Virus record (IMG/VR): IMGVR_UViG_3300009370_000166
Span: 1-23,839 of that record
Strand: one strand, 5' to 3'
Length of the DNA: 23,839 nt
From: a virus
In this document: positions 581 to 21,646 of the stretch, one piece after another
Layout of the letters: each line of letters opens with the position of its first letter
Position numbering within the stretch: the first letter of the stretch is position 1
Notes under the pieces: generated by a model
What the model was told of the DNA's origin: nothing
Databases searched by the model: none
The model's input: only the letters and a program-made list of their open reading frames with translations
Made by a program: the position numbers and the translations under genes

Positions 581-949
581 TTATCGTCTAAGCTTTCCCT
601 TTGGGGAATATCTTCTAAACCCATCACGAACCTTTCTCCAAAGCATTCTCATAAAAGGTCTTTCACCATCATGTGTTCTATTCATAGGGCCATATTCTAT
701 TCCTCTTTGTATATCCAAAGCATCATATCTACCACCTTTTACACCATTCATCATTATTTTAATAATTTGATGTGATGCTTTACCTAAAATATTTGACATT
801 TTTTTAATATCTTTATCTAAAATAATTCTTGCCTCATCTGAACTAAATGTCTGGGGTGCTTCTTCCATAGGATTTTTAAAAGCCCTAGCAGGATTATGTT
901 TAGATATATGACCTGATTGGTCTTTTAGTAAATCTACTAAATTGATCAT
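581..949 (-). CDS. Uncharacterised small basic protein with a targeting-like N-terminus
   Basis: This 122-residue protein begins MINLVDLLKD, resembling the MIKLKELLKE start shared by downstream-cluster neighbours, although position 10 is Asp instead of Glu. The rest contains a probable helical centre (residues 40-68) and a basic tail rich in Arg and Lys (RRYSPKGKLRR). No catalytic motif is visible. Its ATG overlaps the end of the upstream gene by four bases (ATGA), implying coupled translation. By analogy with T4 internal head proteins it may be DNA-associated head cargo. That is inference from the N-terminus, the charge and the position. Confidence 0.8.
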   Translation of the reverse strand: MINLVDLLKDQSGHISKHNPARAFKNPMEEAPQTFSSDEARIILDKDIKKMSNILGKASHQIIKIMMNGVKGGRYDALDIQRGIEYGPMNRTHDGERPFMRMLWRKVRDGFRRYSPKGKLRR

Positions 950-1857: not shown

Positions 1858-2099
1858 TATATCTTATCCATTAATCTTTTGATTTGTTTTAAAATCTTAA
1901 AAGTACCTTTAGCATTTTGAAATATAGAATAATCTTCTCCAATCTTTACCAATTCATCGAACTGGTCTCTCAAATCATATTTCATTTCTTTCCACAACTT
2001 AGAATTAATATCATAGACATGGTATAGTTTCCAACCTGTTTTAGTACTAGCTTCATTTATAGATTCTTTCTCTTTTATTAATTCTTTTAATTTTATCAT
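1857..2099 (-). CDS. Small protein with a MIKLKELIKE leader and a second ESINE site
   Basis: This 80-residue protein starts MIKLKELIKE and continues with ESINEAS (residues 12-18), so two candidate prohead-protease sites sit in the first 16 residues (after Glu10 and Glu16). The ESINE motif matches the ESVNE linkers in the two large modular proteins of this window. A body of about 64 residues remains (residues 17-80), with aromatic residues and a basic amphipathic C-terminus. I see no known family. It begins at a TAATG junction with the holin gene. It links the small-protein tags with the polyprotein linkers and is probably head cargo, by inference. Confidence 0.82.
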   Translation of the reverse strand: MIKLKELIKEKESINEASTKTGWKLYHVYDINSKLWKEMKYDLRDQFDELVKIGEDYSIFQNAKGTFKILKQIKRLMDKI

Positions 2100-2524
2100 T
2101 ATTTTGCCACCTGCTTTACTTTTTCAATTGAACGACCAGCAAAATAAGCCGCATATACTGTCATTAATAAAGTTTGATATACAGGAACATATGCTGCACC
2201 TATTGTAAAATCCTCTCCAGCAATTTGTAAATTTCCATCAAATACACTTAATATTGTAAATACAAATGTAAGAAACACCAAAGTTAATGGTCTGATATTT
2301 TTACTCAACCAACTTCCATGTTTCATATCAGCTTCCCAACGAGCAGATACTTGTGCTTGAGCAGCCTGTTCAGCTTGAATTAAAATTGTTTCTAATTTTT
2401 GTTTTGCTTCAGCTTTTTCTTCACCTGAAGTATGTAGGTTATCAATGATATTTCCCACATCTTTTATCGTATCACCGCCTAATAAACTTCCGGCAGCGCT
2501 AGTAAGTGTACTTAATAATCCCAT
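2099..2524 (-). CDS. Holin of the 3TM / gene-transfer-agent release type
   Basis: This 141-residue membrane protein is likely to permeabilise the inner membrane for lysis. Residues 1-60 are soluble: a small Gly-containing start and a long amphipathic helix rich in Glu, Ala and Gln. The segment around residues 62-80 (RWEADMKHGSWLSKNIRPL) is typical of the 3TM holin family (PF11351 type), which precedes membrane segments at about 79-95 and 108-130. A basic tail ends the protein. It directly follows another small membrane protein, while the candidate endolysin lies about 12 kb away. The family assignment is by recalled sequence pattern. Confidence 0.8.
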   Translation of the reverse strand: MGLLSTLTSAAGSLLGGDTIKDVGNIIDNLHTSGEEKAEAKQKLETILIQAEQAAQAQVSARWEADMKHGSWLSKNIRPLTLVFLTFVFTILSVFDGNLQIAGEDFTIGAAYVPVYQTLLMTVYAAYFAGRSIEKVKQVAK

Positions 2525-2849: not shown

Positions 2850-4310
2850 CTATCTCTTTTTTCGTATGGCAGACATTTTCCAAGCCACATCAGCCATCTT
2901 TTTAATTGGTAGTTTTTCAAATTTCTTTCTATTGGATGAATTGAGTACGTCCCAAACTTTTAAAATAAGATTGGCTGTATTCATATCGACTAAATACCCA
3001 TCAATCTTTTTATGTTGTTTCTTTCTTACGATATGTGCAAGTGTAGTTCTTATCTGATTCCAAGATTCGTTTATATCACTTTTACCAGTAAGTTCATACC
3101 CCAATTGTTCTGCATTTTCCTTTCTTGCCTTTTCAAATTTCTTTTTATCACTTCCTTTTAACTCCCCACCAAATCCTTCGGCATAAAATCCTATTTTTTC
3201 ATATTCTTTTCTTACAGTTGGTTTATCTATGATGATAAGACTTTTTCCAGATGTTTTGTGTTTGACTTTTACTGTTTTACCTTTTTTATATGTAAGTCCT
3301 AAATCTGATTCTTTTATATGAGGATTCTTCTGTTGTCCTTTATTCCAACTATCAACTAACTTAATAAATGGAATAACTTGCTTCTTAAAAGCTTTCATAA
3401 TAATTTTTTGGTCTGATGGAATACCACTTATCTTAGTCATACTTTTAGCTAAACCATTAACTGCAACTGTAAATTTTTGGAATGATTTTGAAAACTCCAT
3501 AGTTAAATTATTAGCATCTCTTTTTTGACCTTCATTTACGGATTCTTTAAATACTGGTAAACCTTTTTTCTTTTGACCAACATTTATTTTTTTAATAATA
3601 GATTTTTTCATTTTTTTCTCTTCAGGTGTTTTGAATTGAGTGTCAAAAACATATTGCATATATTTGTGATATTGTTCTGGATCCATTTTTTCATTTACGG
3701 ATTCGCCTTGCATCTTTTTGGCATACTTGAACAGTCTTTTATGATTTTTACCTATTTCTTCACCACCTCTGTAATCATTATAAAAACTAGCAACAATATC
3801 AGGTAAACTAGAACCTTTTTTGAATTTTGTTTTTAGAAATTTATCGACTTTATTAAAATCACTTATTTTTTTATGATTATAGTTTTTAAATTGTTTATCC
3901 ATTTGAGCATATAAAGCACGAAGTTTTGTTAAATCTTCATTTATACTGTATTCTTTAATAACCTCATCTAAAATATTATCAATCATTGGGTTAAAATCAG
4001 GACTCTCTTTTTTTAAACGACTCTTTTCTCTACGACCCCTATTTGTAGATTCCTTTTCAAATCCAGCAATCTTACCACCTTTATGTGATGCATCTTTACC
4101 ATCACCATTTCCATAAGTACCCTTTTTACGATTGTATTGATTTAATTCCGCTCTATATTTTTTTGCTTTGGTTGATGATTGAAACTTTTTGTATTCGTCT
4201 TTATAATCTCTTTCTGCAGCCTCATCCTTTTTTTCTTTTTCCCACTTATCAGCCATTTCAGGCTCATTAGCATGCATCCACCGCCTTTGCTTTTCCGATT
4301 TGAAGGGCAT
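2850..4310 (-). CDS. Modular head polyprotein candidate with four V/I-N-E linkers
   Basis: This 486-residue, Lys-rich protein lies directly downstream of the prohead protease, where scaffold or core proteins usually sit. The N-terminus (MPFKSEKQRRWMHANEPEMA) is a motif I have seen in many phage proteins of unknown role. The protein then divides at SINE125, SVNE207, SVNE260 and DINE415, with a weaker HIKE334. This gives segments 1-125, 126-207, 208-260, 261-415 and 416-486. Each segment looks like a small folded unit without catalytic motifs, and 336-380 resembles a short basic module (KKGKTVKVKHKTSGKS) recalled from other marine phage proteins. Cutting after these Glu residues by the gp21-type protease is inferred. 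The last six bases of the protease gene give a GGGGGGA ribosome binding site for its ATG. Confidence 0.88.
   Translation of the reverse strand: MPFKSEKQRRWMHANEPEMADKWEKEKKDEAAERDYKDEYKKFQSSTKAKKYRAELNQYNRKKGTYGNGDGKDASHKGGKIAGFEKESTNRGRREKSRLKKESPDFNPMIDNILDEVIKEYSINEDLTKLRALYAQMDKQFKNYNHKKISDFNKVDKFLKTKFKKGSSLPDIVASFYNDYRGGEEIGKNHKRLFKYAKKMQGESVNEKMDPEQYHKYMQYVFDTQFKTPEEKKMKKSIIKKINVGQKKKGLPVFKESVNEGQKRDANNLTMEFSKSFQKFTVAVNGLAKSMTKISGIPSDQKIIMKAFKKQVIPFIKLVDSWNKGQQKNPHIKESDLGLTYKKGKTVKVKHKTSGKSLIIIDKPTVRKEYEKIGFYAEGFGGELKGSDKKKFEKARKENAEQLGYELTGKSDINESWNQIRTTLAHIVRKKQHKKIDGYLVDMNTANLILKVWDVLNSSNRKKFEKLPIKKMADVAWKMSAIRKKR
3066..3077 (-). other. Candidate prohead-protease site DINE415
   Basis: Codons 412-415 encode D-I-N-E, followed by S-W-N-Q. 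Hydrophobic residue at P3 and Glu at P1 match the T4 gp21 rule. It separates the 71-residue C-terminal module from the rest. Confidence 0.4.
3531..3545 (-). repeat. 15-base exact repeat encoding ESVNE, copy 1
   Basis: GAATCCGTAAATGAA on the minus strand encodes residues 256-260 (ESVNE). Exactly the same 15 bases occur at 3690-3704 and at 12954-12968 in a different gene. The flanking bases differ. It marks a module boundary and a candidate protease site. Confidence 0.75.
3690..3704 (-). repeat. 15-base exact repeat encoding ESVNE, copy 2
   Basis: The same 15 bases encode residues 203-207 of the modular protein. Identical codons (TCC for Ser, GTA for Val) are used in all three copies although several synonymous codons are available. 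Confidence 0.75.
3936..3947 (-). other. Candidate prohead-protease site SINE125
   Basis: Codons 122-125 encode S-I-N-E, followed by DLTKL. It separates the charged N-terminal segment from the first compact module (126-207). Confidence 0.4.
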
Positions 4311-4311
4311 T

Positions 4312-4917
4312 TTATCCCCCCATTATGTCAGAAATAATCTGTTCTATTTTACTATACTTAGTAGTTTCTTTCCGAACACCCTCATTCACTGGTTTCATAA
4401 ATGCCCCGTGTGTAGATGGGTTGGATACGAAATCAAATGCAATCAATTCAAAATCAGGTTGAACCTCTACAGTATCTTCACCACCCTCTTTTTCATTTAC
4501 TGGTTCAACACTACCTAATCCTCTTGAACTAATTCCTAATTTAATTCCTGATTTAAATAATTCTTTCAATATATTACCAGCTGGTGTTGACAGTACTTCA
4601 ACCGTTCCCATCAAATCATCACCATTCCAATGCATTTCTACAACATTATGTGAAGCATTATTTAAATTTACAACCGAACTCTCTGGATGGTCAAGTTCCC
4701 CTAAAGCTCTCCTCTCTGTAACTTGTTCTTGCAAATATTTTGCAACTTCTTTTAACAACACATCTCTTGGATATACACGCCCATTTTGATTTTTAGATTC
4801 GGCTCTTTGTAATACACCCTTTACAATAAGCCTTCCATCATTCTTTTCCATAGACTCATGTATTTGAGTTGGTGAAATTTCAAATGGCCTTACATCTACT
4901 AATAATTGTCTACTCAT
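4312..4917 (-). CDS. 21: Prohead core protein protease, T4 gp21-like
   Basis: This 201-residue serine protease is the size expected of the T4 gp21 family (S77, herpesvirus-assemblin-like fold). It acts inside the prohead, degrading scaffold and trimming head proteins after Glu. Recognisable elements are the conserved start of the fold (GVLQRAESKNQNGRVYP, residues 34-50), the probable catalytic His77 in ELDHP, the probable nucleophile in GISSRG (Ser130/131), and the AFDFVSNPS segment (residues 160-168). The C-terminus carries two V-N-E sequences, EPVNE142 and KPVNE179, the latter 22 residues from the end. T4 gp21 cleaves itself, so these may be autocleavage sites. It lies downstream of the portal, as in T4, though with three genes in between. 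An AGGAT ribosome site precedes the ATG. Confidence 0.92.
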   Translation of the reverse strand: MSRQLLVDVRPFEISPTQIHESMEKNDGRLIVKGVLQRAESKNQNGRVYPRDVLLKEVAKYLQEQVTERRALGELDHPESSVVNLNNASHNVVEMHWNGDDLMGTVEVLSTPAGNILKELFKSGIKLGISSRGLGSVEPVNEKEGGEDTVEVQPDFELIAFDFVSNPSTHGAFMKPVNEGVRKETTKYSKIEQIISDIMGG

Positions 4918-9667: not shown

Positions 9668-10128
9668 TTTTTCATCTCATTATTAGCAAGAGCATTTGCA
9701 ACAGTCTTATCAAAACGTAAAGTTTTATTTTTCTCTAATAATTTCATCTCTTCTTCATAATCACTAAGAAAAGCTTCCCATCTTTTTTCTTCCATCTTAG
9801 TAACCCACTCATTCCATTCACCTTCTCTATGTAGGTTAGCTTCAAACTCCATTTGACACACTCTACATTTTCGAAATCTATCATAAGTTTGTTGATCGAG
9901 TGTTTTTAATATCAATTTTTCACAATCACTACATTTATCAAATCCTCTTGGTGGTATTTTGGTAATTTGTTTTCTTTTACCATTTTCTTTAACCCAAGTT
10001 CTATTATTATGGTCAACCCAAGTTTCACCTTCTTTTCTTTCATCTACAGATTTTCCTTCGTAACCAATCTGTACAGAACGATTATAAATTCCCTTTGCCA
10101 TTTTTTGTATTTTTTCTATATTACTCAT
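9664..10128 (-). CDS. Zinc-ribbon protein upstream of the large terminase
   Basis: This 154-residue, charged protein has two Cys pairs, Cys66/Cys69 (KCSDCE) and Cys88/Cys91 (KCRVCQ), 18 residues apart, suggesting a single zinc-binding ribbon. The N-terminal part (25-60) is polar and the C-terminal part (95-150) is helical and acidic-basic mixed. It lies between the 1366-residue protein and the terminase, overlapping both by four bases. T4-like phages place the small terminase (gp16) just before gp17, so a packaging partner is possible, but gp16 has no zinc ribbon. I recall similar small Cys-pair proteins near terminases in marine phages, with unknown role. Confidence 0.8.
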   Translation of the reverse strand: MSNIEKIQKMAKGIYNRSVQIGYEGKSVDERKEGETWVDHNNRTWVKENGKRKQITKIPPRGFDKCSDCEKLILKTLDQQTYDRFRKCRVCQMEFEANLHREGEWNEWVTKMEEKRWEAFLSDYEEEMKLLEKNKTLRFDKTVANALANNEMKK

Positions 10129-13100
10129 CTATCAAATGTCATCATACCAGTAATTTGATTAACTGGTGCAAATGCTCCTGTAAACTTATAAACCTTTCCA
10201 TTATACTTAAATACAATACCCTCACTAGGAATTATTGCATCCAAACCACCAATAGAATCTAACCTATCCAATTGTATCTTTAATTTATTTAACTTCTTTA
10301 AATCACCACCACTCTTTATAGCAGATATTGCGGATTTTACTTTTTTTCTAATAATTTGAACTGATTGTTCTGGATGTGCTGCTAACCAACCATCTATATT
10401 TTTCATTATCTCAGCACCAACTGCAAAAAATAATTCTTCAAATGGTTTCATATTATCCTTGACCATTTTAGCGTGATCATATTTATCGGTAGCCAATACC
10501 CACTCTAAAAATTTAGGATGTTTCTCTTTTAAATCTTTTTTCATATCATTTATTTTATATGACTTATCGAAGAATGCCCATCGTTTAGTCAACTTAACCA
10601 ATATCTCATTTGTTATTTTTGGATAATCAGTTTGATGTGCGCCATTCATTATCCACTCTTGCCAATACATTTGATGATATAAAGAAAGTGTATCATTATC
10701 TTTGAGTACATATTCATTTTGTAATTTTTTTAGTTTTCCTAAAAATTTAGCTTTCATTTTACCAAATTCTTGATGTTTGGGAACTGTCAAAAAATTAGGT
10801 TTCCCTATCTTATACTTTTTTTGTATATGTTGATTTACTTGCTTAATCATTCCCTGTAACATTCGTCCACTATCCCTAGCTTGCCCAATTGCACGGCCAC
10901 TATCATCATATTTCAATGCACCATGAAATATAATTTGAGTAACATCATAATTAATTACATTCTCACTCTTAGGCCACAATACTTCCAAATTCATCCATAT
11001 TGAACCTTGACCAAAAATTTTATCTTGTTGTTTTTTACTCAAACTACTAACTGCTTTTTGTAAATCATTAACTGCAAAAACAAAAGCATCTCTAATTCGA
11101 CCTCTACCTGCAAATTTAGATGCAACACCCTTCACACTCAAAGCAGTTTTTCCTTTATTTTTTAAATGTCCTTTATTGCGAGCAGTAATTAATTTACCGT
11201 TCTTCCAACTTATCATAAGATTTTGTCCATCAAGTTTTTCCGTTACATTATCTTCACGATTTAACTCTCCACCTAAACCTCGTTCTATGATATTTTTTAA
11301 ATCTTTAAAAGTCAAATCTTTGTCATCGAATGGATGTGCCATATGTCCATAAGCCCCACCCTCAGTCAATATTTGTTCTTTATAAACAACTTTTAAATTA
11401 CCTTTGTCTATTTCTTTATCTCTATGTAATTTTTCCATTTCTGGTTTGTTAATTACAAGTTTTGGTTTTTCACTTGGTGTATTACTACCAACTGTCGGTA
11501 CGGCATAATAAGCTTTTCTAAACCCAAACTTTTTAGCCGCTATATGTCCCTTACCACCATATTTTTTAACCAAATCTTTTTCTGCCTCTTCTCTTGAATA
11601 TCGAATCTTAATACCCCTACGCATTAATCTTTGTTTCCAAATCTTGACTTTCTTCGACACTTCTGCTAATGACTTTACTTCTTTTACAATTGAATAATCA
11701 TCGTGAGTTTCATCACCCCTATTGGCATCTGTTTCTTTTGGTTCTTCAGCATCAAGTTGTTTTGCCGTCTTTGGACTATCTTTAACAATAGCTTTTCTTT
11801 CCTTAGCCATAGTGTCAACATATTCATATTCTTGATTTCTTAAAATCATATCAATATGATCTAACCATTTGTTCCATAATTCAGTACCAACGTAATCTGT
11901 TAAATTTTGAGCACTTGGTTCTTGAACTCCAGCTGGACCAAATGAAACGGAATCTACTGGTCCTTTTGGATATTCTGTATCTTTAACAAAACTAAAATCT
12001 TGACTATAATAATACTCATCATCAATTAATTCTTTCGCAAGGTCCCAACCCAATTTTCCAGCCTCTAATTCAGCTCTATTACGATATGATTTTAAACTTG
12101 ATATAAAACTTGGACCATCATCAACCTCACCAGCTGTATTTAAATTTGTGTTTTCGAATAAATGTGTATAAAATTCAAACAACTTTTTAAATTTATTCGT
12201 CATCATATTATACACACCTTTATCATAATATCCAAAAGCTTTTTTAAATAATTTTGGTCTTTCTTTAGAATCAAATTCAGGTGAACCTAAAAGTTGTCTC
12301 ATTACAGTTCCACTCACTTCTTTACCACCCACATTCACAGAAACATGTGGTGCTGTCATTATATATCCGTGCTCTTCATGCCCCTTTAAATTACCTTTAT
12401 TCTTTTTATAATCTTGATAATAAGTTTTTCCACCACTTTTCTTTGTTCCTCCAGCTAATCTTCCAGCATCTTTCTTTCCGAAAATATAAATAACTGCTGT
12501 AGTATCTTTGTCGTATTTTTTCAAAGTATTTTTTGCTACATAAGGTATTTTTTCTTTTACAATACGATTTGCTGGAACACCCATTTTAACCATATGTCGA
12601 ACTTTCTCTTTATAATTCATTGGATGTCTTGGTGGTTTTTTTATATCAGTTGTGGTTATGTAAGCTTCATCAACTTGTGCTTCTAACCACTTAAATGTTT
12701 TTAAATGATGAGGACCAAATGGTTGAAATCTTCCACCGTATATTCCAATGACTTTTTTGATTTTACTCTTTTCTTCAAATAAATCACCTACATCTTTTTT
12801 ATATGTTTGAATAAGTTGATATTTACTTTTTGGATCTTTCTTTCTAGCTTTTTTCAATTCACTACGAGCAGCACTTTTAGAACCTTTAAATTGAACTATC
12901 TTCTTTCCTTTTACTACTTTATAAAATCCATATGCCTTTGATGGTTGTATAACTTCATTTACGGATTCATTTCCCATCGGAACAACCCAATGAATATTAG
13001 CTTTATCTAACCTATCAAGTACTTTCATAATTTTACCATAACCACCAGCAACATTATAAAATCCAGCTTCCTTACCACTACCTTTAAGTTTCTTAATTTT

Positions 13101-14225
13101 ATCGAATTTAAAATTCTTATCAAAGTAATGATACAGAAGTTTATTTACTTTAGGTATGTCTTTTCTAAATACCCAAAATCTTTTAATTTTAGCTTCATTG
13201 ACTTTTTTATATCCACTCATTGAATTAGTTTTATTCTTTTTAACTTTCTTTCTTGATGGACTTCCTTGAATTACACCATCACCACCAACAATCCCCTCTT
13301 CATCAAATATATTAACTCTTTTATGAATTCTAAATGTAGCAGCCTTTCTTCCATTTATTGTTGGCATTCCATGTTTATCTTTTCCTATATTTTTAATCTT
13401 CATTTTTTTATTCTTAAACTTACCTACTAATATAGTATCGCCAACTTTTACTGGAATCTTTATATCCTCTTTCATTATCTTTTGTTTTTCAATCCATTTT
13501 TTGCCAAGATGATTTTTTACAGGTTTTTTAATGAATTTACCAATTCCTTTTGTAACCAACATATTAAATTTTTTGGTTGCTTGTTTTTCATCTAAAGTTT
13601 TAGAGTTATCAACCATCAGATAATTAGCATTTCCAAATAATCCTTGAAATGAAATTAAATTTTTCTGAACATCCTTCCAACTTTTCTCTACTAACTCAGG
13701 ACTTAACTTTCTTGGTCTTTCCATATTTCGTTTTTGTGCTACATCTAAATCAGTATGAACGAACACCATAAAAGTATCATAACCAATATCTTCTAATTCT
13801 TTCTTTTGTTCTTTTATTTTTCCGTATTTATGACCAGTACCATCAATAATCAAACCGAGTCTACCATTCATATAAAGTTTTTTCTGTTGAGCCGTTATAT
13901 CTTTTGCATAACTTCTCAACCCACTATAATCATCATAAGTAGGATCAGTCAATTGTCTAAATAATTCTTCTGGCATATCATCTAAATCTGTACCGAATCC
14001 ATATTTCTTCAATAATGTCGTAAGTGCTTTATCTTGATTGACTACCTTTAATCCATATGCCGATACAGTAGTTGTATCGGGTATTCCAAATAATCCCTTA
14101 GAAACGTATCCTTTACCACTTCCAGGTCCACCAGCAAGAAATATAGCTTTTAAAATACCAGGATCATTGATACCTTCTTCTATTATTGGTTTAGTTATTT
14201 CTTCTACTAATTTCTGTAAACTCAT
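10125..14225 (-). CDS. 1366-residue multidomain protein: P-loop kinase, small modules, cytidylyltransferase-like, ATP-dependent ligase-like
   Basis: Order: residues 20-250, P-loop kinase (zeta-toxin/polynucleotide-kinase type) with Walker A GGPGSGKG (32-39) and IIDGTGHK (126-133); 254-305, a short beta-rich module (KVGDTILVGKFKNKKMKIKN); 345-424, an 80-residue module; 425-484, a further small module; 490-660, a nucleotidyltransferase-like domain with GRFQPFGPHH (498-507) and SGTVMR (638-643); 700-950, a charged helical region; 956-1366, a ligase-like domain with EKLDG (nucleophile Lys997), MNLEVLW (1078-1084) and EGIVFKYNGKVYKF (1335-1348). KVNE344, ESVNE424 and ILTE955 lie at module borders and fit prohead-protease rules. 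ILTE resembles the FLTE cut in T4 gp23. RNA or nucleotide repair is the likely chemistry. It is translationally coupled to the Nudix gene (ATGA). Confidence 0.9.
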   Translation of the reverse strand: MSLQKLVEEITKPIIEEGINDPGILKAIFLAGGPGSGKGYVSKGLFGIPDTTTVSAYGLKVVNQDKALTTLLKKYGFGTDLDDMPEELFRQLTDPTYDDYSGLRSYAKDITAQQKKLYMNGRLGLIIDGTGHKYGKIKEQKKELEDIGYDTFMVFVHTDLDVAQKRNMERPRKLSPELVEKSWKDVQKNLISFQGLFGNANYLMVDNSKTLDEKQATKKFNMLVTKGIGKFIKKPVKNHLGKKWIEKQKIMKEDIKIPVKVGDTILVGKFKNKKMKIKNIGKDKHGMPTINGRKAATFRIHKRVNIFDEEGIVGGDGVIQGSPSRKKVKKNKTNSMSGYKKVNEAKIKRFWVFRKDIPKVNKLLYHYFDKNFKFDKIKKLKGSGKEAGFYNVAGGYGKIMKVLDRLDKANIHWVVPMGNESVNEVIQPSKAYGFYKVVKGKKIVQFKGSKSAARSELKKARKKDPKSKYQLIQTYKKDVGDLFEEKSKIKKVIGIYGGRFQPFGPHHLKTFKWLEAQVDEAYITTTDIKKPPRHPMNYKEKVRHMVKMGVPANRIVKEKIPYVAKNTLKKYDKDTTAVIYIFGKKDAGRLAGGTKKSGGKTYYQDYKKNKGNLKGHEEHGYIMTAPHVSVNVGGKEVSGTVMRQLLGSPEFDSKERPKLFKKAFGYYDKGVYNMMTNKFKKLFEFYTHLFENTNLNTAGEVDDGPSFISSLKSYRNRAELEAGKLGWDLAKELIDDEYYYSQDFSFVKDTEYPKGPVDSVSFGPAGVQEPSAQNLTDYVGTELWNKWLDHIDMILRNQEYEYVDTMAKERKAIVKDSPKTAKQLDAEEPKETDANRGDETHDDYSIVKEVKSLAEVSKKVKIWKQRLMRRGIKIRYSREEAEKDLVKKYGGKGHIAAKKFGFRKAYYAVPTVGSNTPSEKPKLVINKPEMEKLHRDKEIDKGNLKVVYKEQILTEGGAYGHMAHPFDDKDLTFKDLKNIIERGLGGELNREDNVTEKLDGQNLMISWKNGKLITARNKGHLKNKGKTALSVKGVASKFAGRGRIRDAFVFAVNDLQKAVSSLSKKQQDKIFGQGSIWMNLEVLWPKSENVINYDVTQIIFHGALKYDDSGRAIGQARDSGRMLQGMIKQVNQHIQKKYKIGKPNFLTVPKHQEFGKMKAKFLGKLKKLQNEYVLKDNDTLSLYHQMYWQEWIMNGAHQTDYPKITNEILVKLTKRWAFFDKSYKINDMKKDLKEKHPKFLEWVLATDKYDHAKMVKDNMKPFEELFFAVGAEIMKNIDGWLAAHPEQSVQIIRKKVKSAISAIKSGGDLKKLNKLKIQLDRLDSIGGLDAIIPSEGIVFKYNGKVYKFTGAFAPVNQITGMMTFDR
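11361..11372 (-). other. Candidate prohead-protease site ILTE955
   Basis: Codons 952-955 encode I-L-T-E followed by GGAYGHMAHP, exactly at the start of the ligase-like domain. T4 gp23 is cut at FLTE before Ala. Release of a separate ligase of about 411 residues is predicted. Confidence 0.4.
12954..12968 (-). repeat. 15-base exact repeat encoding ESVNE, copy 3
   Basis: Residues 420-424 of the 1366-residue protein are encoded by the same 15 bases as in the modular protein at 3531 and 3690, about 9 kb away. Confidence 0.75.
13194..13205 (-). other. Candidate prohead-protease site KVNE344
   Basis: Codons 341-344 encode K-V-N-E followed by AKIKRFW. Together with ESVNE424 it frames a compact 80-residue module. 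Confidence 0.4.
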
Positions 14226-14650
14226 GCCTTTAATTCCAAAGAATAACGCATACCTTTTTCAATTGGATATGGTAATGAATCAACATCATAATAACCATAA
14301 TCAGAATGTTCTTTATCAAGTTCAGGTTTGGGTTTATTTGGTAATTCAATCATATATAACTTTACAATTCTATTATATTTAGAATCTTTTATTGTATCTA
14401 AATATACTAAAGAATTGATGTCAATGTCAAGCTTTGTTTCTTCTTGAAACTCTCTATGAGCACCTTGAATGAACTTTTCTCCACTCTCAACATGCCCCAT
14501 TGGAACTGCCCAAAAGTTAGGATATTTTCCTGCATTTTCTGATCTTTTTGTTAATAAAACCTTATCTTCTGATTTAACCACAACTCCACCAATTTTTTTT
14601 GGTGACTTAACATCAAATTCAAGTAAATCAATTAATTTTGGTATAGACAT
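14222..14650 (-). CDS. Nudix hydrolase
   Basis: This 142-residue protein hydrolyses nucleoside diphosphates linked to other groups; the substrate cannot be told. The Nudix box runs from Gly52 to Leu74 (GHVESGEKFIQGAHREF then QEETKL). Gly52, Glu58 and the REFQEE core (66-71) are all present, but the usual Gly near the end of the box is Lys73. The N-terminus is beta-rich (19-36) after a leader, MSIPKLIDLLE, that again ends in a hydrophobic-x-Glu, so it might also be a targeted protein. Its stop overlaps the start of the 1366-residue protein (ATGA), suggesting that both act on the same nucleotides, for example NAD-type or ADP-ribose compounds or capped RNA. Confidence 0.9.
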   Translation of the reverse strand: MSIPKLIDLLEFDVKSPKKIGGVVVKSEDKVLLTKRSENAGKYPNFWAVPMGHVESGEKFIQGAHREFQEETKLDIDINSLVYLDTIKDSKYNRIVKLYMIELPNKPKPELDKEHSDYGYYDVDSLPYPIEKGMRYSLELKA

Positions 14651-15378: not shown

Positions 15379-17934
15379 TTAATAACTATATGCAGAACTA
15401 CTAATAGTTTGCACTAATGTCGTATCTAATGATCCTTCAGTATATTCTTCAGTACAACAATTATTTACCCAAGCCGGCGTACCACTTGATACAGCAAGAG
15501 CTGCTGTATCTGTTCCAAGATGTGCTGTACGATTCCTAGCCGTAGCCATATTTGGACCAGCAGACCAAGCTGTACCATTCCATAATTCTGTATTAGCAAT
15601 ATTAGTAAATGAATTACCACTTACAGTACTACCACCCCAAGCCACACCTGAATTTTGGGTTCCAGCACCACCTCGAGCCATAACTGTCTGACCCATTTCT
15701 GTTCCTGTAGCCCAAGAAGTACCATCCCAATCCTCAACACATCCACAATTAGGATAAGCCCCCGCAGCTACAGCAGCATTTACTGTTCCAAATCTTGCTC
15801 TCCCACCTTTCGAATTTAATATATTATCATTACATTGAACCCATGCACTACCATCATAACCAAAAGTTTCAGAACAGGCGATCCAATTAGAATAAGGCAT
15901 TTCATAACCTTGGTAAGGAATACAAGAAAATCCATATGCAATAGTAGAATTTTGATTTCCAACCCCTACACCATCTCCTCTAGAATAAGGCATATTACCA
16001 GAATTAGACCAAGATGAACCATTATATTCTTCAGTCGCATTACAATCTCCTGGTGCACCAAAAAATGGACCTTGTTTAGCGCCACCAAAAGCTAAACCAG
16101 CATTTTGATTTCCAGTAGCTCCTCGGAATGACAGGGTTTTACCTTGATTATTAGAAGATGTCCATGATGATCCATCATACTCCTTAGTTCCAGTTCCAAT
16201 ATACCATTGGTTAGCATTACCACTCTTATATTGACCTGTAACTAAAACCGCTGCATTTTGGCTTCCAAGAACACTACTCCGAAAAGTTGTATCTCCAACA
16301 GTTCCTCCAGCACTCCATACTCTATCTGTAGCACTTGAACTTAAATAAGAATAATTAAGACAACCTGTAAGTCTATTAATCCAAAGAGAACCAGGACCTA
16401 ATGAAGTGATTGGAGGATCGGCTGTCAATAATGGAATCTGTTGTGGTTCAGTTGATTGTAATTTAATCGAACCAGTAATAGTTAAATTACTTGGTGTTGC
16501 AACATTTGTTATATTAGCACCATCTCCACTAAATACTGTAGCAGAAAGTGTGCCTGTGCTTGGATTATATGTTAAATCACCATCAGATTCCAATCCTAAA
16601 TTTCCACCATCTACATCACCACCTGCAGTAAAGATAATAGCATTTTCTTCATTTGTAGATTCATTATCTGTAATAGTAACTGTAGTTGCTACAGTTGCTG
16701 TATCAGCAGTACCTGTTACATTACCTGTTACATTACCTGTTAAATTACCAGTAAAAGAAGCATTAAATGAACCACTTCTATGTGCACCATCTTGTGAAAG
16801 CATTCCAAAAGCAGCTGATGAAGATACCAAACCAGATTTAGCAACAATTTCTTTTGATTCTAAATTATTCGTCAAAGATTTGTCATAATGTTCAGTACAA
16901 CAATGACCTGGATATCCACCAAAAATGGAAACTGCATTAGAACTACCATCACTAGATCTACCCCGAGCGAATCCGGGATGAACACTTGATGCGCCAGTTG
17001 ACCAAGCACTACCGTTCCATAAAATGACAGCTGTACAGTAAGAATTGTAGCTACCTCCGCTAGCTAGAAAAGCATCATTTTGTGTTCCACCAGCTGCAGC
17101 CGCACTTCTTTTGCTAGGAAGATTTGATATATTAGACCAACTAGTTCCATCATATGATTCAGCACATGTCATTGTATAATTTGGATGAGAAAAAATAGTT
17201 GCTCTTAAGGAATAACCAGAATAACAAGCACAGGCACCACCTAAAGCCAACGCAGCATTTTGACTACCACCCACAGCAATATTATCTTTCCCAGGAGCCG
17301 ATCTATTTATATTATTAACTGCTGTCCAACTTGTACCATTATATTCTTCTACACAAGAGTATGGGGTATTGGCATAATTACTAGAACATTTCAGACCCCC
17401 TACAGCAAGAGCTGCATTTTGAGTTCCATCTCCTCCATGGAAAGACCGACCAACATTCATAGCATTAGAAGTAGCCCAAGCTGAACCATTAAATTCTTCT
17501 GTACAAGTATAATCCAGCGTATCTGGTCTAATAAAACCTTCTACCCCACCAAATAATACAAACGCATTTTGACCACCAGCACCAGCTGTTGAACCACGAG
17601 AAACCGTAACATCAACACCATCCGTCCAAGTCGTTCCATCATATTCATATGATTCAGCTTTTATTGTACCATGATTCGATCCACCAGCAACATGAATTGC
17701 ACTGTCCTGTCCACCTCCAGATCCTCCGGCGCCTGTTCCAGCTCCTGTTGCAATTGCTCCACCAACAGACCAAGCAGCTGATGCTATACTTGAACTCAGA
17801 TAAGCAAATTTTAATGCACCACCTCTGTTTATCCAAAAGGAACCATCAGATATAGCCGGCGTAGTTGGATCAGTATCAAATGCCTGTACTTTTGTCGCTG
17901 TGCTTCCTGTAATATCTGCTGAATAAATCTTCAT
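15379..17934 (-). CDS. Fibre-like protein with two kelch-type beta-propellers
   Basis: This 851-residue protein has two similar halves. Each begins with a WINR...YLSSS...W-S-x-GG segment (residues 30-60 and 514-545) and continues with kelch-like units, in which an EYNGTSW strand is followed by a GTQNAALAFGG strand. I count six GG strands and six EYNG-type strands in each half (75-350 and 555-832), with the first and last strands able to close the ring, so two six-bladed propellers are likely. Between them, 391-475 is a Thr/Gly/Asn-rich region (NLTGNVTGNVTG) as found in marine phage fibres. Cysteines are unusually frequent (CACYS, CCTEHY, NCGC, CCTEEY). A receptor-binding or virion-surface role is inferred. 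No clear ribosome site precedes the ATG. Confidence 0.88.
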   Translation of the reverse strand: MKIYSADITGSTATKVQAFDTDPTTPAISDGSFWINRGGALKFAYLSSSIASAAWSVGGAIATGAGTGAGGSGGGQDSAIHVAGGSNHGTIKAESYEYDGTTWTDGVDVTVSRGSTAGAGGQNAFVLFGGVEGFIRPDTLDYTCTEEFNGSAWATSNAMNVGRSFHGGDGTQNAALAVGGLKCSSNYANTPYSCVEEYNGTSWTAVNNINRSAPGKDNIAVGGSQNAALALGGACACYSGYSLRATIFSHPNYTMTCAESYDGTSWSNISNLPSKRSAAAAGGTQNDAFLASGGSYNSYCTAVILWNGSAWSTGASSVHPGFARGRSSDGSSNAVSIFGGYPGHCCTEHYDKSLTNNLESKEIVAKSGLVSSSAAFGMLSQDGAHRSGSFNASFTGNLTGNVTGNVTGTADTATVATTVTITDNESTNEENAIIFTAGGDVDGGNLGLESDGDLTYNPSTGTLSATVFSGDGANITNVATPSNLTITGSIKLQSTEPQQIPLLTADPPITSLGPGSLWINRLTGCLNYSYLSSSATDRVWSAGGTVGDTTFRSSVLGSQNAAVLVTGQYKSGNANQWYIGTGTKEYDGSSWTSSNNQGKTLSFRGATGNQNAGLAFGGAKQGPFFGAPGDCNATEEYNGSSWSNSGNMPYSRGDGVGVGNQNSTIAYGFSCIPYQGYEMPYSNWIACSETFGYDGSAWVQCNDNILNSKGGRARFGTVNAAVAAGAYPNCGCVEDWDGTSWATGTEMGQTVMARGGAGTQNSGVAWGGSTVSGNSFTNIANTELWNGTAWSAGPNMATARNRTAHLGTDTAALAVSSGTPAWVNNCCTEEYTEGSLDTTLVQTISSSAYSY
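16711..16746. repeat. 12-base tandem repeat, three units
   Basis: ACCTGTTACATT occurs twice and then once with a single change (ACCTGTTAAATT). It encodes the NLTGNVTGNVTG run in the central part of the two-propeller protein. In-frame expansion by slippage would lengthen the linker. Confidence 0.7.
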
Positions 17935-18986: not shown

Positions 18987-19685
18987 TTAGATAACCCTAT
19001 TAAATAATAATTGTGTTAAATTTCCCTCAGAGCCTAATTTTTCTTTTGGTAATATATTCATAGCTACACTGCTTCTTATTTTTCTTGTAGTATTTTCTTC
19101 AACAGAATGTGTAAACCAAGATGGAAAGAATATTAACGATCCTGGAGCAAAATTAAAACTAAATGAAGTCCAAGTATTTGGAATATCACTTCCATCTATT
19201 TGCAATACATCTATAGTATTTTGTTGATAAGAAACTGATGGTTTATGAAATGTTAATGAAGGTGTTTTTTCTTCAGAATGCCCATAAAAAAATACTCCAG
19301 ATATTACACTATTAGGATGAGTATGTGCAACATGCATTTGTCCAGGATGTTTATGAGAAACCCAAGTTTGTGAAAACTGCCACTCATCAACATCATATCC
19401 TAATAATGTATCATTATAATTTTTCGCTTCTTTTAATATATATTCTTTAAATTCAACACATTCTGGTTCATCCAATATATAACTATTCTTTGAATGAGTT
19501 CCATAATTTTTACTATCAGAAGTTTTATGATGATGATGAGTTTGTAAATCAAAGAAATTACAAACAACAGAATATTCTGGAGGCATCTCCAATGTCCGTA
19601 TTGGTATTGGAAAAACATTATAATCTTCTATATATAATTTATTAGAATCTTCTATAGATTCCTTTATCTTCTTATCTTTTTTCAC
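18987..19685 (-). CDS. Putative 2-oxoglutarate/Fe(II) oxygenase (TIGR02466-like), GTG start
   Basis: This 232-residue protein resembles the TIGR02466/PF13759 oxygenases. Metal ligands are likely among His118, His121 and His123 in HVAHTHPNSVISGVFFY (118-134), with distal His193 in FPSWFTHSV and the probable 2-oxoglutarate-binding Arg204 in RSSVAMN. The start is GTG at 19685, overlapping the upstream stop (GTGA), with AGGA eight bases before it. A run of four His at 50-53 is notable. The reaction would be hydroxylation of a protein or small molecule, using oxygen and 2-oxoglutarate. It shares its family with the next gene upstream, suggesting duplication with strong divergence. Confidence 0.85.
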   Translation of the reverse strand: MKKDKKIKESIEDSNKLYIEDYNVFPIPIRTLEMPPEYSVVCNFFDLQTHHHHKTSDSKNYGTHSKNSYILDEPECVEFKEYILKEAKNYNDTLLGYDVDEWQFSQTWVSHKHPGQMHVAHTHPNSVISGVFFYGHSEEKTPSLTFHKPSVSYQQNTIDVLQIDGSDIPNTWTSFSFNFAPGSLIFFPSWFTHSVEENTTRKIRSSVAMNILPKEKLGSEGNLTQLLFNRVI

Positions 19686-20326
19686 CTATTGGTTCCTACT
19701 TTTATTTCCTCATACCTCTTTCCTGTAACATCAAGAGGTAATACATAATTAATTGATAATACAATTCTATCTTTATCAGTTAAATTTTGACCAACACCAT
19801 GTTTTAACCAAGATGGAAATAATATAAAATTTCCTGTTTTTGGTACAATATTAAAATTGGTTGCTGTAAACTCTGATTTTCCTGTTCTATCTTTAAAATA
19901 ATATTCAGCACTATCACCTCTTTCTATAAAAAATTGTCCAACATCACCTTCGGCTTGAACATAATAAGCAGCTGATAAAAAACTTCCTTGATGATTATGA
20001 TATGCATTATAATTATATTTTGAATTTACTATAAACCAATAATTACCAATCATCAAATCAGAAACTTTAGTTTTTTCTGCACAATAATCATTTACAAATT
20101 CAGTTGATTCTTCAAGTAGATTTTTTAAATCATCAGCTAATGGTTCTAATACTTCATATGAATGTGAATGCCAACCACCTATATTTGACCTACCGATACC
20201 TTTTGGATCATGATCTTTTATTTTATTTACATATTCAGCTATACTTTCATTATCAATATTACTAATTTCACTTACCCAAATATGATTTGGAAATAAATCA
20301 ATTTCATCTACTTTAAAATCTAACAT
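19682..20326 (-). CDS. Putative 2-oxoglutarate/Fe(II) oxygenase (TIGR02466-like)
   Basis: This 214-residue protein shares the layout of its downstream neighbour: FPNHIWVSEI near the start (12-21), YHNHQGSFLSAAYYVQ with candidate ligands His110 and His112 (109-124), FPSWLKHGVGQN with distal His176, and DRIVLSIN with Arg187 for 2-oxoglutarate. This pattern is typical of the family common in T4-like cyanophages and other marine phages; substrates are not known to me. It starts at a TAATG junction with the upstream oxygenase, so the four genes are translated as a chain. Confidence 0.87.
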   Translation of the reverse strand: MLDFKVDEIDLFPNHIWVSEISNIDNESIAEYVNKIKDHDPKGIGRSNIGGWHSHSYEVLEPLADDLKNLLEESTEFVNDYCAEKTKVSDLMIGNYWFIVNSKYNYNAYHNHQGSFLSAAYYVQAEGDVGQFFIERGDSAEYYFKDRTGKSEFTATNFNIVPKTGNFILFPSWLKHGVGQNLTDKDRIVLSINYVLPLDVTGKRYEEIKVGTNR

Positions 20327-20958
20327 TATCTAAATGGCTCCCCACCTGTCCAAAAAACAAGTGCTCTTCTTTCACCCTTAGTTATTGGTGTTACTCTATG
20401 GAGATAAAAAGTTGGGAAAATCAATACATCTCCTTTTTCTCTTGGTAATGTAATAAAACCTTTATGACCACCATACCATACTTGAAAATCCCCACCTTCA
20501 TAATCATTTGGATCACTTAACTGTACAGTGCAAGCAAGCTTTCTATTATTAACTTTACCTTGACCTATATCCATATGCCAATCTAAATGTCCACCATCAG
20601 TAGGATAAATTACATAATGAAGATTATCTGTTATAGTCTGAATATCAAATTGGAAAATCTCTTTATTTGCCTGTAAAACTAAATCTAATAAAAATTTATA
20701 AACCCATTCAGAATGATCTACATATGGGACATACGCAATATCTCTATTATTTGTCTTTTCACTATCTGTATTTTCTCCATAACCAGTTTCACCTTTTTTT
20801 AAAACATAACGATTCAAAACAATCATTTTATGTGTTTTTTCAATTAACTCTTCTGTAAATACATCGTTAAAATAATAAAAATCACCAAAATCACAATTTA
20901 TTGGACTTGAAATAGTAGGTTTATACTGAATGGTGGGAGAATCAGTCATCTTTTTCAT
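20326..20958 (-). CDS. Prolyl-4-hydroxylase-like 2-oxoglutarate/Fe(II) oxygenase
   Basis: This 210-residue enzyme has a complete facial triad: His128 and Asp130 in GGHLDWHMDIG, and His187 in FPTFYLHRVTPI, with Arg197 in KGERRALVFW as the likely 2-oxoglutarate contact. The SDPNDYEGGDFQVW segment (148-161) is the usual core strand of P4H/PKHD-type enzymes. The protein is close to the length of small bacterial PKHD hydroxylases. It overlaps the upstream gene by 17 bases, and a second ATG at 20949 would leave an 8-base overlap; neither has a clear ribosome site. The substrate is unknown; a virion protein residue is an inferred possibility. Confidence 0.9.
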   Translation of the reverse strand: MKKMTDSPTIQYKPTISSPINCDFGDFYYFNDVFTEELIEKTHKMIVLNRYVLKKGETGYGENTDSEKTNNRDIAYVPYVDHSEWVYKFLLDLVLQANKEIFQFDIQTITDNLHYVIYPTDGGHLDWHMDIGQGKVNNRKLACTVQLSDPNDYEGGDFQVWYGGHKGFITLPREKGDVLIFPTFYLHRVTPITKGERRALVFWTGGEPFR

Positions 20959-21646
20959 CCATAATTATTAAATGACTACGTTCATCCACATAAAGTGTCG
21001 GCTTACTACCATCTTCGTATTCTATCGGAAGCATTCCTTCGAATCCAAACCATCCAGTAAGAACATATTTTGTTTCATTAGGAGCAACTATACCACGATG
21101 CATATGAGTAAAGTCAGCTGGCCACGCAACTAATTTTCCAGCCTCAGCCCGTTCAAAATGTTGTTGATAATAAAACTCGGTCTCACCACCCACTTCAACA
21201 TCATTTAAATATATCAACCAAGCATGAGTTCTATTATAAAATTGATTATTACAGCGTTCACAATGAAATACCTTATAACCTTCTTCAGGATTATATCTTT
21301 GTAAATTAAAAAAAGTACTTATTACAAATTTATCAATATTATCACAACCCACATACCAATATCTTTTATAATCCTCTATTGCCGATTCCAATACTGGAAT
21401 TATTTCTTCTTTAAGTATATCTCCCCAAATTGGATCATCGAGCATTTGCGGACCAAATGTCATATCAGTAGATTTTTTTATCTCATCTAAAGCTCCTGTG
21501 AATAGTCCTTCTTCATCTTCCGTTGAAGTTCTTCCAACCACACCATTATAATGTAAATCAGTGCTCTCTTCAAAAAGAGTTATTAATTTATCACAGACTT
21601 CTTTGCTTAATGCGTGTTCTCTTCTAAGAATAAAATCTGTAACCAT
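20942..21646 (-). CDS. Prolyl-4-hydroxylase-like oxygenase with an HxE metal motif
   Basis: This 234-residue protein follows the P4H layout: RYNPEEGYKVFHCERC (117-132), then LIYLNDVEVGGETEFYY (144-160), then WPADFTHMHRG (175-185) and ETKYVLTGWFGF (191-202). The ligands would be His128, Glu130 (instead of the usual Asp) and His183, with Lys193 binding 2-oxoglutarate as in prolyl hydroxylases. I recall HxE variants in other phage members, so activity is plausible. It is the first gene of the oxygenase chain, three bases after the preceding gene, with an AAAGAG ribosome site inside that gene's end. Confidence 0.88.
   Translation of the reverse strand: MVTDFILRREHALSKEVCDKLITLFEESTDLHYNGVVGRTSTEDEEGLFTGALDEIKKSTDMTFGPQMLDDPIWGDILKEEIIPVLESAIEDYKRYWYVGCDNIDKFVISTFFNLQRYNPEEGYKVFHCERCNNQFYNRTHAWLIYLNDVEVGGETEFYYQQHFERAEAGKLVAWPADFTHMHRGIVAPNETKYVLTGWFGFEGMLPIEYEDGSKPTLYVDERSHLIIMDEKDD

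Follow-up and report, generated by a model that had tools for sequence, protein, structure and literature searches.

The window analysed here, a stretch of 23,839 nt of viral DNA, carries next to its prohead protease gene an ORF of 486 codons, and the question is whether its product is a head protein of the usual kind or a string of small proteins that is cut apart inside the prohead. An earlier note on this DNA had proposed the latter. ORF and translation bore out the 486-residue protein at 2850–4310, with its ATG at 4310 and on the minus strand. The claimed adjacency to the protease gene also held. The protease ORF (4312–4917, minus strand) sits one base upstream and encodes a Peptidase_S77 of the T4 gp21 family (Pfam, E=1.3e-32; PHROG head maturation protease, 2.7e-56). 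Its score against PF03420 was 113 bits, with a cut-off of 27, and the DHP and SSRG motifs expected of S77 peptidases were present in all of the 96 protease relatives. The gene order is that of a T4-type head: terL, portal, ORFs of 281, 101 and 71 aa, the protease and then the 486-aa ORF. In relatives (L004) the scaffold and major capsid protein (MCP) genes lie farther downstream of its counterpart. The position is suited to core or internal genes, as the note had read it. Within the array of head and internal-protein genes there is also a holin-like ORF (2099–2524, minus strand; a weak GTA_holin_3TM match below the cut-off), which adjoins the polyprotein in close relatives as well. Outside this array, a run of three or four ORFs at 18987–21646 (minus strand), by eye 2-oxoglutarate/Fe(II) oxygenase-like, lies upstream of a tail-fibre-like ORF (15379–17934).

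The four (S/D)(V/I)NE motifs on which the proposal was built, SINE125, SVNE207, SVNE260 and DINE415, were found at exactly these residues. Their number is far above expectation: over 20,000 composition shuffles of the protein the mean was 0.027 [SD][VI]NE per shuffle, and four were never reached. Generic [VIL]xE sites were not enriched (7 in the protein versus 5.6 ± 2.1 expected) and counting them was discarded as uninformative; the signal is therefore the specific motif. All proposed cut sites are read from the minus strand. At the first, SINE125 followed by D (3936–3947), L002, L072 and L066 have TINE, SINE or MNE in the same place, and the structural model shows coil. The second (ESVNE207 followed by K, 3690–3704; coil with low pLDDT) and the third (ESVNE260 followed by G, 3531–3545; coil) are both encoded by a frozen 15-mer, GAATCCGTAAATGAA. 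The fourth, DINE415 followed by S (3066–3077), has homologous DVNE or DIKE in relatives. IKE334 followed by S (3309–3317) is an additional candidate, located at a homology break between two modules (m4a and m4b, see below); the module that begins there with SDLGLTY or ADLGLTY comes after a Glu in nearly all contexts. This site probably adds a sixth product to the predicted set. Of the earlier estimate of about five small products, the four motif sites thus stand and the count becomes five or six.

To gather relatives, viral contigs were scanned with three kinds of query (the protein itself, the protease and a two-copy DNA pattern), which yielded more than 110 loci. Pfam gave no significant match for the 486-aa ORF, for its counterparts in L002 and L011 or for the 841-aa protein of Flavobacterium phage immuto. 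In more than 50 marine viral contigs the relatives are mosaics of exchangeable modules, with lengths between about 200 and more than 1100 aa; the one in L002 has eight T/S-[VI]-N-E joints in 839 aa. The individual modules of the 486-aa protein recur at 40–98% identity, with neighbours that differ on both sides. Module m1b (aa 31–104; 3999–4220, this and the following on the minus strand) is phrog_6437-like (PHROG, E=2.5e-12) and is present at 53 loci in a wide range of contexts; according to tblastn to cyanopodoviruses it is a stand-alone gene in T7-like cyanophages. Module m2 (aa 126–207; 3690–3935), an independent helical domain, occurs in 10 loci with differing modules after it, and m3 (aa 208–260; 3531–3689) is 94–98% identical in other loci, where it has different neighbours on both sides. 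The region of aa 261–415 (3066–3530) consists of three blocks, m4a, m4b and m4c, which are exchanged separately. Module m5 (aa 416–486; 2853–3065), a confident small domain, has homologous C-terminal modules in L024, L072 and L010. Many relatives have DUF3008 as their N-terminal module; it is absent from the 486-aa ORF itself.

Linkage was tested by asking whether the block upstream of a seam meets a different downstream block in another phage. In 59 mosaic proteins, linkage across seams was broken in 65% of the comparisons, versus 24% at control positions. The comparison of module order among relatives, which had been suggested as a check, thus shows exchange at the motif. Loss of the motif between conserved flanking modules, the outcome that would have spoken against the proposal, was not seen: where both flanking blocks were kept at fixed spacing, ESVNE was kept in 24 of 24 (partly redundant) comparisons. 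Strict BLAST breakpoints coincided with the motif in 16% of the cases versus 4% by chance, and since the motif accounts for just this 16%, many seams are other xE joints followed by S, A or G. Breakpoints based on loose, K-rich BLAST ends were a weak test (1.5–2.3-fold excess), and the linkage test was used instead. Two named phages carry comparable proteins. In the cultured phage immuto, the hypothetical protein of 841 aa (QQO92109.1; L022:9347–11872) contains joints of both the ESVNE and the ESLNE type, and a module known from L011 and L020 occurs in it twice. Synechococcus phage S-SM2 encodes between terS and terL a similar mosaic of 708 aa with [VIL]xE joints (SSM2_109; L134:5698–7824), which has several modules in common with the marine contigs. 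The N-terminus of the neighbouring SSM2_108, MKTLKQFLKE, looks like a T4-type capsid-targeting sequence (CTS).

The window also contains small ORFs adjoining the polyprotein, all on the minus strand, whose N-termini resemble such sequences. The ORF at 1857–2099 starts with MIKLKELIKEKESINE followed by A, a T4-like capsid-targeting N-terminus; those at 1507–1857 (MIKLKELLKEEKQSLKE followed by T) and 1218–1514 (MIKLSGLITE followed by K) are capsid-targeting-like. Starts of the form MIKLKDLL[KTNS]E in the small ORFs beside the polyprotein are very close to the T4 sequences. The capsid-targeting pattern was found in 83 distinct N-termini of the locus set and in none of its terminases, portals or MCPs. 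It was likewise found in 0 of 41 ORFs of the POLY class, and the 486-aa ORF, whose N-terminus reads MPFKSEKQRRWMHANEPEM, has no T4-like CTS either. The body of a further small ORF (122 aa; 581–949, minus strand) recurs as C-terminal module in polyprotein-like ORFs of L011 and L020, an indication that modules pass between the polyprotein and targeted genes separate from it. This phage, as read from its sequence, combines both strategies, since the putative polyprotein is adjoined by small, separately encoded ORFs whose N-termini are of the T4-like capsid-targeting kind. The fusion that the earlier note had set against the separate internal-protein (IP) genes of T4 is there, but the plain contrast is not, with separate CTS-like ORFs next to it.

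Virion data are available for homologues in the cultured cyanophage S-SCSM1. Its gp279 is a stand-alone DUF3008 protein of 69 aa, 67% identical to the N-terminal module of the relatives, and is annotated as a virion protein from mass spectrometry (PMC9602691, NC_070962.1). The same holds for its NMN adenylyltransferase gp281, which starts with the CTS MKSFLQFLKE followed by A, and for the neighbours gp280, gp282 and gp089 (PMC9602691, NC_070962.1). The 486-aa protein starts with another short segment, so that these data speak for the family and not for this particular chain. In the window, an ORF of 1366 aa (10125–14225, minus strand) comprises, according to Pfam, P-loop kinase-like and NMN adenylyltransferase-like parts and a C-terminal region. 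Since it contains one ESVNE 15-mer (12954–12968), and since the cyanophage NMN adenylyltransferase is a virion protein, its product is probably a second head cargo. The N-terminus of this ORF is P-loop kinase/zeta-toxin-like, its C-terminal region contains EKLDGQNL, by eye ligase-motif-like, and its relatives in L099, L102 and L106 have an N-terminal module in common with SSM2_109. A NUDIX-like ORF (14222–14650, minus strand) starts with MSIPKLIDLLEFD; its relatives start with MSIPKLKDLLNE, which is capsid-targeting-like, and on that ground the nudix enzyme may be head cargo too.

The gene lies between the protease and the scaffold genes, the location of the T4 core genes, and the protein might accordingly be a core or scaffold protein that is cut at the same sites and whose pieces exit the head before DNA packaging, as most of T4 gp22, gp67 and gp68 does. 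T4 offers a precedent in gp22 and gp67, each one head protein that receives several prohead-protease cuts (here the cuts are predicted) and whose fragments mostly leave the head (PMC9026906). However, the 486-aa protein does not have the properties of a gp22-type scaffold. With charge computed per module, its net charge is +49, strongly basic like the T4 internal proteins, and the clade has its own separate, acidic gp22-like scaffold beside the MCP, preceding it in L004, L014 and L020. To our knowledge, the gp22 and gp67 fragments are not modules that can be exchanged, nor is there a frozen seam between them. The highly variable module content, and the presence in S-SCSM1 virions of DUF3008, the first module of many relatives, also argue against a scaffold, a reading which we consider unlikely.

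If the protein is cut, its joints should be sites for the adjacent protease. The published gp21 cleavage rule is L/I-X-E (PMC9026906). Among 157 non-redundant near-copies of the seam (at most 3 nucleotide changes), P1 was Glu in 148 and P3 was V, I or L in 155, whereas P2 drifts (N, D, K, S, Y, E, T, H). Over 211 sites, Glu was found at P1 in 201, V/I/L (mostly V) at P3 in 206 and A/G/S at P1' in 104. The seam sites thus show the gp21 substrate pattern of a hydrophobic P3, Glu at P1 and a favoured small P1', although V at P3, common in the seam, is outside T4's own I/L rule. The clade MCP carries NQARQLI[SD]E followed by A, S or N at the expected maturation point, and the MCP site of phage immuto has V at P3. 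The protease has a likely self-processing site at its C-terminus, PVNE179 followed by G (4381–4392, minus strand); PVNE followed by G or S, or PMNE followed by S, occurs near the C-terminus of most relatives. The gp21-like rule that had been read into the linkers is therefore upheld by the near-copies and by the like sites in MCP and protease, and the ESVNE seam probably reads as a site for the clade's own gp21-type protease. Conservation of P5 Glu (195 of 211) and P4 Ser (188 of 211) came close to that of P1 and is not expected from the T4 rule. The pattern would thus be due in part to common descent of the 15-mer, and some of the conservation may reflect recent DNA copying and not selection for cleavage. 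At seam residue −2 a hydrophobic amino acid is common, which gives the appearance of a second site (hydrophobic-K-E followed by S) ahead of SVNE; if cut, it would release a tetrapeptide.

An AlphaFold2 model of the 486-aa protein (39-row alignment, mean pLDDT 61, pTM 0.26) contained two confident independent domains, at about 128–200 and 416–485, with a pLDDT of 76–91 over about 130–190 (m2) and 88–94 for m5. Low-confidence coil was found at or beside all four motif sites, and the proposed cut sites are thus predicted to fall in linkers. A fold search of the model against the PDB gave no significant match. A viral polyprotein would comprise several independently folded products with sites for the virus's own protease between them; here putative sites and separable modules were observed, two of the modules folding confidently by themselves in the model, and the release of products is predicted. 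The same linkers would suit a chain that stays whole, like beads on a string, with (E)SVNE as a flexible linker or as a docking motif for scaffold or protease; the conserved Glu and Ser at P5 and P4, neither of which gp21 needs, would fit such a motif. However, the preferences at P1, P3 and P1' agree both with the gp21 rule and with the sites in the clade's own MCP and protease, and homologous modules are also encoded by genes of their own, with capsid-targeting N-termini that end in a site of this type. An uncut chain is, in our estimation, improbable.

The joints are also unusual at the DNA level, as ESVNE is nearly always encoded by the one 15-mer. In the window it is present at 3531–3545 and 3690–3704, both in the 486-aa ORF, and at 12954–12968 in the 1366-aa ORF. 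In 1.22 Mb, all 122 exact copies were in frame, sense and within ORFs, with no intergenic or antisense copies among them, and a DNA-only or antisense role was set aside on this account. Exact copies link 56 upstream and 56 downstream block families, with 79 different pairings. Ser is encoded by TCC at 71% of the seam sites versus 5.3% of other serines, and Val by GTA at 97% versus 39% elsewhere. With the loci that had been selected by DNA pattern removed, TCC was still found at 64 of 87 sites; chance or simple codon bias was ruled out as the source of the 15-mer by this contrast, also without the pattern-chosen loci. The information profile of the 211 sites has sharp edges at 15 bp, with a weak A/G/S preference directly after. 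Ten larger viral contigs (~860 kb) contained 32 copies with at most one mismatch, on a single strand per contig and nearly all within ~2 kb, and no copies of a reversed control pattern. In the polyprotein family ESV/INE has a density of 3.89 per 1000 aa; none was found in portal (51.6k aa), terL (29.4k aa) or MCP (7.6k aa) sequences. That the 15-mer is purely a nucleotide-level element, a recombination seam or mobile in-frame cassette whose protein product has no role in cleavage, would account for codons frozen beyond protein need, conservation that stops sharply at 15 bp and the many block combinations, but is very improbable given copies that are exclusively in frame and sense, on one strand per contig, and near-copies that preserve the P1 and P3 chemistry while P2 drifts. 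The readings as DNA seam and as protease site are compatible, and the best explanation takes in both.

We therefore regard it as likely that the 486-aa ORF (2850–4310, minus strand) encodes a head-confined cargo polyprotein, an internal-protein precursor that is cut at gp21-type sites and whose modules are shuffled at the seam; the translation, the charge of its modules and the mosaic relatives point this way. It would be synthesised as one basic chain and built into the prohead core, where the adjacent gp21-type protease would cleave S-(V/I)-N-E behind its Glu, and probably also cut behind IKE334. Five or six small, basic, separately folded proteins would be freed inside the head, stay there and perhaps later be ejected with the DNA. 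Packaging and cleavage we infer from the protease rule and from the virion-detected homologues of related modules in S-SCSM1; retention, ejection and any function of the released products we likewise infer. The cut site would double as the joint for module exchange between phages, with GAATCCGTAAATGAA passed on nearly intact from one junction to the next; any module arriving with it would thereby be in frame and have a cut site. We give even chances to the wider idea of plug-and-play cargo, in which this 15-bp coding cassette is both prohead-protease site and recombination seam, and small injected proteins are added, dropped and reordered. If true, the cassette keeps every insertion into the one gene in frame and ensures that it is packaged and then set free in the head.

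Among known systems the T4 internal proteins are closest. IPI, IPII, IPIII and Alt have capsid-targeting sequences and are processed by gp21 (PMC9026906). In common with them are the proposed small, basic head proteins, a gp21-family protease with a hydrophobic-x-Glu rule and the prohead-core cargo, as well as the CTS-like N-termini of adjoining ORFs. The T4 proteins, however, are separate genes with a single N-terminal cut each, whereas here the modules are fused in one ORF and the internal site is repeated and frozen at the nucleotide level. The 486-aa protein accordingly departs from the definition of a T4 internal protein on two counts: it has no CTS, which for such a protein would be an N-terminal stretch of about 10 residues with a gp21 site at its end, and, basic as it is, it is fused and 486 aa long. 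Inner-body and ejection proteins of phiKZ and SPN3US are packaged and receive multiple prohead-protease cuts (PMC10052503, PMC5694885), as predicted here, but there the cuts strip propeptides from a single mature protein and do not give several products. The S-SCSM1 cargo (gp279, gp280 and the NMN adenylyltransferase gp281; PMC9602691, NC_070962.1), all annotated virion proteins, shares the homologous DUF3008 module of relatives and mosaic neighbours, and the adenylyltransferase has a CTS ending in LKE followed by A. Unlike the ESVNE seam, its [VIL]xE joints are varied, and its DUF3008 module stands alone. Mobile regulatory cassettes reportedly shuffle small genes in T4-type phages. They resemble the seam in that a short conserved sequence is tied to modular exchange, but they are intergenic and regulatory, whereas the seam is coding, in frame and protease-site-like. 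A literature search for an earlier account of this system found none, most subscription papers being outside its coverage. The system would be a variant of the T4 internal-protein/prohead-protease system, with IP-like processing but with exchangeable modules and a frozen, repeated joint.

Each module is a candidate for an injected protein, and with the seam as a marker in the sequence itself, further ones can be sought in unannotated genomes. In addition, the natural variation of more than 150 seam copies resembles a mutational scan of protease specificity. The finding suggests that some marine T4-like phages vary the proteins carried in their heads as strings of exchangeable modules, and not gene by gene.
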